From a virus: a stretch of DNA of 24,260 nucleotides. The notes below the pieces were generated by a model, which worked only from the letters and a program-made list of their open reading frames with translations, had not been told where the DNA came from and made no database searches. Positions 2,139-3,304 of this stretch are shown here, in pieces. A program made the position numbers and the translations under genes. How positions within the stretch are numbered: the stretch's first letter is position 1; the number at the start of each line of letters is the position of its first letter. Location: positions 1-24,260 of IMG/VR virus record IMGVR_UViG_3300030060_001902; one strand, 5' to 3'.

Positions 2139-2234
2139 ATGGCTATTTTACTAGCTTTTTTAACATTATATACAACTCTAGCTATTAATTTGCATCATAA
2201 AGGCAAATCAGTTACAAATCAAAATAAGATATGA
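2139..2234 (+). CDS. Possible tiny membrane peptide (doubtful)
   Basis: A 31-codon frame starts with a hydrophobic stretch (MAILLAFLTLYTTLAINL) and continues with a short polar tail, as in small single-pass membrane peptides. Its stop overlaps as ATGA a second, 17-codon frame at 2231-2284. There is no Shine-Dalgarno sequence, and the frame lies where a leftward promoter is also suggested, so it may be chance in AT-rich DNA. Confidence 0.2.
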   Translation: MAILLAFLTLYTTLAINLHHKGKSVTNQNKI

Positions 2235-2352
2235 AAAAATTTATTATTTATGTTAAGAGAGATTATTGCTCCCAAGCAATATAAGTATTAAATTCATATC
2301 TTACTTAGGTTAATTAAGGTAGCCGACTCCTCTCTCTGTCGGCTATCTTTTT
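2225..2352 (+). ncRNA. Structured leader or small RNA ending in an intrinsic terminator
   Basis: Three helices can form in about 130 nt on the plus strand. The first is an 11-bp long-range stem, TAAGATATGAA (2225-2235) with TTCATATCTTA (2293-2303). The second is a 7-bp hairpin, TATTGCT/AGCAATA (2264-2281), with loop CCCA. The third is the terminator hairpin at 2316-2349 followed by U residues. The terminator lies before any convincing plus-strand gene, so a transcript starting upstream would end here as a short RNA or be attenuated before the 2367 operon. The 5' end and promoter are not defined. The outer repeat could instead be a pair of operator sites. Confidence 0.45.
2316..2352 (+). terminator. 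Intrinsic terminator with a loop complementary to the next ribosome-binding site
   Basis: TAGCCGAC (2320-2327) pairs perfectly with GTCGGCTA (2338-2345) and can extend outward to 2316/2349 with one G-U pair. It is followed by UCUUUUU (2346-2352). The stem is GC-rich against an AT-rich background, which is strong evidence for a real terminator. The 10-nt loop TCCTCTCTCT (2328-2337) is the exact reverse complement of AGAGAGAGGA at 2353-2362. Confidence 0.8.
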
Positions 2353-2362
2353 AGAGAGAGGA
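2353..2362 (+). promoter_or_regulatory. Ribosome-binding site of the 2367 gene, complementary to the terminator loop
   Basis: AGAGAGAGGA ends 4 bases before the ATG at 2367 and is a good Shine-Dalgarno sequence. It can pair over all 10 bases with the terminator loop at 2328-2337, closing a 15-nt loop. That pairing would hide the ribosome-binding site and is sterically incompatible with the full terminator stem. Confidence 0.75.
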
Positions 2363-2366
2363 AAAT

Positions 2367-2651
2367 ATGAAACAATTAGAGTTGGAGTACCCAGCACATA
2401 ATTATACTGAAACAAGTAAGTCAGCATACAACAAACAAAAGCCAAAATTAAAAACTAAAAGAGAAAAGGTTTTGGAATTTGTAAAATCGCAATCATCAAC
2501 TAATTATGAAATCGCAGATGAATTAGAGATGCCATTATCTAGTGTATGTGCTAGAGTTCGAGAGTTACAGCTTTTAGAACTAATTGAAGATAGTGGACAT
2601 AGAAGAGAAACACCTTATGGAAAAACAGCGATAGTATGGCAAAAGAAGTAA
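2367..2651 (+). CDS. Winged-helix DNA-binding protein
   Basis: This 94-residue protein has a disordered basic N-terminus (1-30) followed by a winged-helix domain (about 32-93): helix REKVLEFVKS, helix TNYEIADEL, recognition-like helix SSVCARVRELQLLELI, then a hairpin wing with RRETPYGKTAIVW. This resembles phage MarR/GntR-type winged helices. It is the first gene of the rightward operon, behind the terminator/anti-SD leader, and overlaps the Mom-like gene by 16 nt. It could be a transcription regulator or a replication-associated DNA-binding protein. The start is supported by the AGAGAGAGGA ribosome-binding site. Confidence 0.75.
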   Translation: MKQLELEYPAHNYTETSKSAYNKQKPKLKTKREKVLEFVKSQSSTNYEIADELEMPLSSVCARVRELQLLELIEDSGHRRETPYGKTAIVWQKK

Positions 2652-3304
2652 GAAAAATAAAAAGAGAAGATACTTTAGAATTTATTTTAAATATTCATTA
2701 TGCAAAAAGAGTACCACAAATTATTCATTCATATGGTTTGTTTGAAGATAATAATTTAAAAGGTGTTGTAACTTTTGGTAATCCACCATCTCAAAATGTA
2801 TGTAAATGTATTTGTGGGGATATTTATAAATCTGAAGTTTTAGAGTTAAATCGTTTAGTTTTAAAGGATAATAAAAAAAATTATGCAAGTTTTTTAGTTT
2901 CAAACTCTATAAAAAATTTACCAAAACCATCTATCATAGTTTCATATGCAGATTTAAATTACAATCATAATGGATATATTTACCAAGCATCTAATTTTAT
3001 TTACACAGGTAAAGCAAAAGCTAGAGAAAAATTTGTTGATAAAAATGGTAAAGACATAAATGAGAGAACTTTGGCTCATAAATACCAAAAATTAAAAATA
3101 TCAAGATCAGAATATTTAAAATTAAACAACATTGAACTTACAACTCAATTAGGAAAACACAGATATGTTTATATTCATGCAAGTAAAAAAGACAGAAAAC
3201 AAAGATTTAGAGATTTTAAATTACCAATTAAAACATATCCAAAGGGTGATAATATAAATTATTTTTGGAATTATAATATTAAAGAACAAGGTTTATTATT
3301 TTGA
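2636..3304 (+). CDS. Mom-like DNA adenine modification protein (GNAT-related)
   Basis: This 222-residue protein matches my recollection of the phage Mom-like family: IHYAKRVP (20-27), a glycine/proline loop FGNPPSQ (47-53), a Cys cluster at 56, 58 and 60, ELNRLVL (70-76), SFLVSNSI (85-92), IIVSYAD (100-106) and YQASNFIYTG (116-125). Mom of phage Mu is an acyltransferase-fold enzyme that adds a methylcarbamoyl group to adenine in DNA and so blocks many host restriction enzymes. Relatives are scattered in phages. Whether this protein makes the same modification cannot be told from sequence. Its start lies inside the winged-helix gene and has no nearby Shine-Dalgarno sequence, so translation is probably coupled. 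An HNH nuclease gene follows immediately. Confidence 0.7.
   Translation: MAKEVRKIKREDTLEFILNIHYAKRVPQIIHSYGLFEDNNLKGVVTFGNPPSQNVCKCICGDIYKSEVLELNRLVLKDNKKNYASFLVSNSIKNLPKPSIIVSYADLNYNHNGYIYQASNFIYTGKAKAREKFVDKNGKDINERTLAHKYQKLKISRSEYLKLNNIELTTQLGKHRYVYIHASKKDRKQRFRDFKLPIKTYPKGDNINYFWNYNIKEQGLLF

Follow-up and report, generated by a model that had tools for sequence, protein, structure and literature searches.

The preQ1-I and SAM-II riboswitches are H-type pseudoknots that hold the Shine–Dalgarno (SD) sequence within the pseudoknot, and in the IncI-type repZ leader translation is set when the loop of a hairpin pairs with a remote strand that lies close to the SD. In phage T4, the gene 32 leader pseudoknot is an autogenous translational operator bound by the gene's own product and, according to a review, this T4-type case is possibly the sole viral pseudoknot that autoregulates translation (PMC3014915). 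The put element of phage HK022, a two-hairpin RNA of ~70 nt in the early transcript, acts on RNA polymerase and is present in both early operons (PMC9378689). Here we describe an early leader RNA found in a 24,260-base virus record (the window, meaning the whole stretch of DNA that was analyzed) and in its relatives, which neither T4 gene 32 nor HK022 put fits fully. Like T4 gene 32, the locus has a phage mRNA leader with a predicted pseudoknot upstream of the ribosome-binding site (RBS) and a proposed control of translation initiation; unlike T4, where one gene is controlled by its own product, the leader stands before at least 12 unrelated first genes, which argues against binding by the product of the downstream gene. 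The likeness to HK022 put is one of layout only, a two-hairpin RNA near the early promoter and 5′ end that is independent of the first gene, whereas the last hairpin here abuts the SD and its loop is predicted to pair with a 5′ strand; furthermore, no equivalent leader was seen before the divergent operon of the window, while put serves both operons. With preQ1-I and SAM-II the leader shares a hairpin loop able to pair with the downstream SD region, but it has no Rfam covariance-model match, its stem of 12–15 bp is far longer and the conserved loop partner appears to lie upstream. A long-range loop–strand pseudoknot setting RBS access would be common to this leader and IncI-type repZ, although the latter belongs to plasmid replication control through antisense RNA.

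The window has ~77–80% DNA identity to the Pelagibacter phages HTVC026P, HTVC111P, HTVC202P and HTVC112P, and comes from a relative of the pelagiphages HTVC026P, HTVC111P and HTVC202P. Pelagiphages infect the most abundant ocean bacteria. The features of the rightward early operon and its leader are the following.

2190–2218, plus strand: putative early promoter (TTGCAT, 17 nt, TACAAA), from aligned upstream regions read by eye
2226–2235, plus strand: 5′ arm of P0, the leader's 5′ hairpin (AAGATATGAA), pairing with 2293–2302 in the fold
2255–2262, plus strand: 5′ strand X (AAGAGAGA), an upstream SD-like copy complementary to the loop segment UCUCUCU (2331–2337)
2264–2281, plus strand: small hairpin TATTGCT-CCCA-AGCAATA, for which relatives show at least 11 distinct paired stems
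2283–2306, plus strand: conserved core AAGTATTAAATTCATATCTTACTT, the most conserved primary sequence of the leader
2316–2327, plus strand: 5′ arm of the S1 hairpin
2328–2337, plus strand: S1 loop UCCUCUCUCU (= TCCTCTCTCT), with complementarity over 10 nt to the SD and over 7 nt to strand X
2338–2349, plus strand: 3′ arm of the S1 hairpin
2353–2362, plus strand: SD region of the first gene (AGAGAGAGGA), the exact loop complement, 4 nt before the ATG at 2367
2367–2651, plus strand: first gene in the rightward early operon, encoding a 94-aa protein (phrog_1123, PHROGs 1.7e-20)
2636–3304, plus strand: second gene, Mom-like DNA modification protein (Pfam PF25680 1.9e-37; phrog_1384 8.4e-58)

The S1 hairpin (2316–2349) is located between two divergent early operons. 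In the rightward operon, the phrog_1123 and Mom genes are followed by genes for an HNH/RecA-dependent-nuclease-like protein and a DnaD-like helicase loader. The promoter at 2190–2218 and its transcription start site are putative assignments; aligned upstream regions of relatives carry a promoter-like TTGnnn-15/17-TATAAA followed by AACGAATCA. Between the operons, positions 2100–2165 hold a conserved motif GCATAAAACCTAGCTTTTTTAAC with TTGCAA/TACATT-like boxes, which together are probably the leftward early promoter.

A preliminary description of this DNA had reported a terminator with an 8-bp stem (2320–2327 with 2338–2345), whose loop was the exact complement of the SD of the next gene. The hairpin is present, but its true extent is 12 pairs, one of them G-U (2316–2327 with 2338–2349). 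The match itself holds in sequence and coordinates: the loop is the exact reverse complement of 2353–2362, at a spacing of 15 nt. The tail after the 8-bp stem reads TCTTTTTAGA; after the full stem only TTT (2350–2352) is left before the SD, so that 'terminator' is a weak label. In a scan of both strands (stem of ≥8 bp with ≥4 GC pairs, loop of 6–14 nt, loop match within the next 26 nt), no hairpin of the window but S1 had a loop matching ≥6 nt of the sequence after it. Across 400 dinucleotide shuffles of the window, both strands included, a match of ≥8 nt arose once and a 10-nt match never, which bears out the earlier statement that a 10-base match is not likely by chance; composition alone is unlikely to be a sufficient cause. 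Shorter loop–RBS matches are partly to be expected from low complexity, and 22 of the 106 RBSs of four related genomes had ≥6 nt complementary to UCUCUCUCU. The fold of the window leader was more stable than that of all 200 shuffles (z = −4.25).

About 70 distinct leaders were collected from loci with the first gene and from contigs with the conserved motifs. The leader spans ~140–170 nt, lies directly 3′ of the early promoter and ends with S1, in the constant order promoter, AACGAATCA, P0 5′ arm, AGAGAG, small hairpin, core, S1, linker and SD. It is present in HTVC111P and HTVC202P, and in HTVC026P before the leftward gene gp03. The P0 arms change together (GATAATT/AATTATC and GATAAAT/ATTTATC in the L026/L062 group; GTTATG/CATAAC in HTVC026P), and the small hairpin varies in sequence with its pairing kept and a GNRA cap as the usual form. 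In relatives the core reads AAGTATTTA..TTTTCATATCA and its end pairs with P0; it contains the P0 3′ arm (2293–2302) and an alternative short stem, AAGTA/TACTT. Because MAFFT alignments misaligned the CU repeat of the window-family hairpin, S1 stems were counted pair by pair from the loop and the base; 531 of 536 pairs were kept over 42 distinct stems picked by best pairing, a choice that favors pairing, and the stem sequences differ in every clade. S1 is mostly 12–15 bp long and the linker to the SD is 2–7 nt in nearly all leaders. An optional extra hairpin, AACTTGGTAACAAGTT, occurs between core and S1 in L071, L079, L090, L099, L123, L166, L180 and L187, and other insertions occur there in L108, L169, L216 and L231.

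The first genes behind the leader belong to at least 12 unrelated families, which suggests a role at the level of the leader and not of the gene; the earlier reading, control of the Mom-like operon in particular, is not supported. At phrog_1123 genes in the interior of an operon (L029, L031, L035–L050 and L064–L070) or preceded by another hairpin (HTVC026P gp15 and L021), the leader is absent; it is therefore linked to the promoter rather than to the phrog_1123 gene. A different hairpin, CAGGGTC..GACCCTG, whose loop is not complementary to the SD, precedes intra-operon phrog_1123 genes (L001 3950–4014, which is HTVC026P gp15; L021–L024; L049). A conserved leader peptide around ATGTTAGAGAG was rejected, as its frame differs among variants and the ATG is missing in some. 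Rfam searches at the gathering score and at E ≤ 10 gave chance matches only, none of them at the leaders, and an exact-pattern scan of genome contigs for the promoter/P0 motif found five unrelated chromosomal matches without the leader and no host copy.

A second leader family, of the HTVC112P type, shows with which partner an S1 loop is able to covary.

L004 4255–4411 and L244–L310 upstream of the match: HTVC112P-type leader with 5′-strand/loop covariation

Its order is a 5′ strand AAATCGGT, a small hairpin, a conserved CTCCCTTTCTAGTTA (which we take to resemble the 3′ tail of 16S rRNA) and S1 with loop ACCGATTT near the SD. In a permutation among 38 distinct leaders, a test that ignores phylogeny, loops matched their own 5′ strand better than swapped ones (18.62 versus 17.37; 0/5,000), while loop and SD did not covary (9.86 versus 9.82; 2,265/5,000). 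Compensatory 5′-strand/loop pairs include AAATCGGT/ACCGATTT, AAATCGGA/TCCGATTT, AAATCGAT/ATCGATTT and AAATTGG/CCAATTT. Among 16 representatives, in a register partly chosen by best match, 98% of the cells of the 5′-strand/loop helix and S1 were paired (0/500 shuffles as high), nine pairs had two-sided changes, three of them in the loop/5′-strand helix, and the pairing collapsed when the partners were slid. This covariation indicates that the partner of the HTVC112P-type loop is the 5′ strand rather than the SD, and by analogy AGAGAGA at 2256–2262 would be the partner of the window loop. A scan of the relatives' loci for hairpins near the start whose loops match upstream sequence brought up no third family. 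At L297 353–418 (minus strand), a type II hammerhead ribozyme scored 45.2 bits, above the Rfam gathering score.

We consider that there is an even chance that, in the window family, the loop normally pairs with the 5′ strand in a leader pseudoknot and that the SD is a competing partner. Transcription from the early promoter would yield a structured 5′ leader RNA with S1 as its 3′ element, in which a 5′ hairpin arm (P0 plus the small, often GNRA-capped hairpin) would expose the GAGAG strand. The CUCUC of the S1 loop would pair with this strand to form a long-range pseudoknot. The SD resembles the 5′ strand in most members, and perfectly in the window phage, and would be a competing loop partner. 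While the 5′ strand occupies the loop, the SD would be free and the first early gene translated (the presumed ON state); once the 5′ contact is lost, perhaps in answer to some signal, the loop would take the SD and initiation would be blocked (the presumed OFF state). With an S1 of 12–15 bp and a linker of 2–7 nt, our A-form estimate is that S1 together with a full loop–SD helix would be sterically tight, which counts against this model.

The main rival to this pseudoknot with a competing SD, which we consider unlikely although clearly the best placed of the alternatives, is that the loop–SD match is incidental and the loop/5′-strand pseudoknot acts alone, as a put-like antitermination element or a 5′ message stabilizer, in phages whose early genes favor GAGAG SDs. 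Loop and SD covary in neither family: in the window family, own pairs scored 15.75 and swapped pairs 15.55 (555/5,000, not significant), again with phylogeny ignored, so that the covariation check proposed in the preliminary description did not favor its reading. The same permutation, with the same disregard of phylogeny, gave 16.61 versus 16.55 (1,795/5,000) for loop and 5′ strand, and since 5′ GAGAG and CUCUC are nearly invariant, covariation does not prove that pairing for the window family either. Early genes often have GAGAG SDs (22/100, versus 5/128 late genes; p = 4e-5; window early genes and L241–L243), with SD-like motifs overall equally frequent in both classes of the same set. The position of the leader right after the promoter, indifferent to the first gene, is also that of a polymerase-modifying RNA. 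Moreover, S1 is kept without a matching SD in L085/L132/L171, L216, L223/L235, L025 and HTVC026P, the last of which keeps an 8-nt loop/5′-strand match. Several relatives without an SD match, HTVC026P among them, retain an upstream GAGAG; non-complementary loops, the very case that the preliminary description had held to count against it, thus occur in several lineages and weigh against the SD as the loop's selected partner.

Against an incidental match stand the full 10-nt complementarity in the window, the GC extension shared by loop and SD in L019, and the closeness of S1 to the SD, at 2–7 nt in nearly all cases. In 62 of 68 leaders, the own RBS ranked within the top quarter of background RBSs in its match to the own loop (median p = 0.155). 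Among 77 leaders selected by promoter motif alone, 5′ GAGAG and loop CUCUC were both present in 72 and both absent in 5, in favor of the 5′-strand pseudoknot; by their SD the 72 divided into 65 and 7, the 7 including the cut-off L169 and L231, which have AGGGAGA. The five leaders without the GAGAG/CUCUC pair are L025–L027, L030 and L062. All of these but L025 combine a loop CUCCC with an SD GGGAG, where the main group has CUCUC with GAGAG; in this L026/L062 group the loop is without a 5′ partner, a pattern that supports loop–SD pairing as a real second option and also speaks against an incidental match, but the missing 5′ partner counts against the favored pseudoknot. In L025 the loop has neither partner, which counts against it too; in its favor, the 5′ strand (ACAAAAT), the loop (U7) and the SD (AUAAAGG) have all changed together in L061.

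The preliminary description had proposed that S1 is an intrinsic terminator and that loop–SD pairing both removes it and blocks translation. We consider this switch very improbable. In its favor, TTTTT follows the core stem and the two folds are almost isoenergetic in the window (S1 hairpin −18.2 versus nested loop–SD helix −17.0 kcal/mol); the ensemble gap is ~0.4–1.6 kcal/mol, and the favored side depends on the segment folded. The balance is not shared: in 54/54 distinct leaders S1 was better than the nested loop–SD helix (median difference 9 kcal/mol), with near parity in the window only, and bistability may accordingly characterize this phage but not the leader family. A U-tract (3–5 U) is confined to the window's own clade, and most relatives keep the hairpin without it; the stem is followed by UUU in the window, by CUAAC, AUAAC, CUAC or ACAAA in related leaders and, as read in relatives, by CTAACAGAG, ATAACAGAG or CTACAAGAG. 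An intrinsic terminator was hence rejected despite the stem, given 3 U after 12 bp and no U-tract in most relatives; a terminator scan of the window for loops of 3–8 nt did not list S1, whose loop is 10 nt. Loss of a terminator combined with a translation block would also have no obvious output. From the comparison of relatives, S1 is the last element of a conserved structured leader RNA and very probably not a transcription stop. Two points of the earlier proposal stand: the loop–SD match recurs in most relatives, and a regulatory RNA in the leader is the correct type of explanation.

Equally improbable is action of the loop in trans, in which a released leader would pair with GAGAG SDs of other early genes for later shut-off: the 22 RBSs with loop complementarity and the concentration of GAGAG SDs in early genes would suit it, but the loop of the second family differs and lacks SD complementarity, and there is no sign of a separate small RNA. 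Least probable of all is a 5′ domain that senses a ligand or protein (a riboswitch or phage protein operator) with S1 and the SD as expression platform, for although the highly conserved core beside covarying helices and the one leader before many first genes could suggest a common signal, there is no Rfam match, the downstream genes include no metabolic class and P0 pairing also explains the core.

The structure of the leader is well supported, and we infer a regulatory effect. In a literature search of incomplete coverage, we found neither a report of a leader of this kind in pelagiphages nor anything on post-transcriptional control of pelagiphage early genes; a pelagiphage transcriptome paper deals with two other phages, HTVC022P and HTVC027P, and leaders are not mentioned in it. 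We tentatively propose, at less than an even chance, that the leader belongs to a class of phage early-leader RNA, widespread but undescribed, whose loop chooses between a 5′ SD-like decoy and the real SD and thereby sets translation of the first gene. The comparison points to two covarying families of leader RNA at pelagiphage early promoters that are absent from Rfam, and these leaders occur in the cultured phages HTVC026P, HTVC111P, HTVC202P and HTVC112P. If the proposal is true, they would add a naturally occurring SD decoy that competes for an anti-SD loop.
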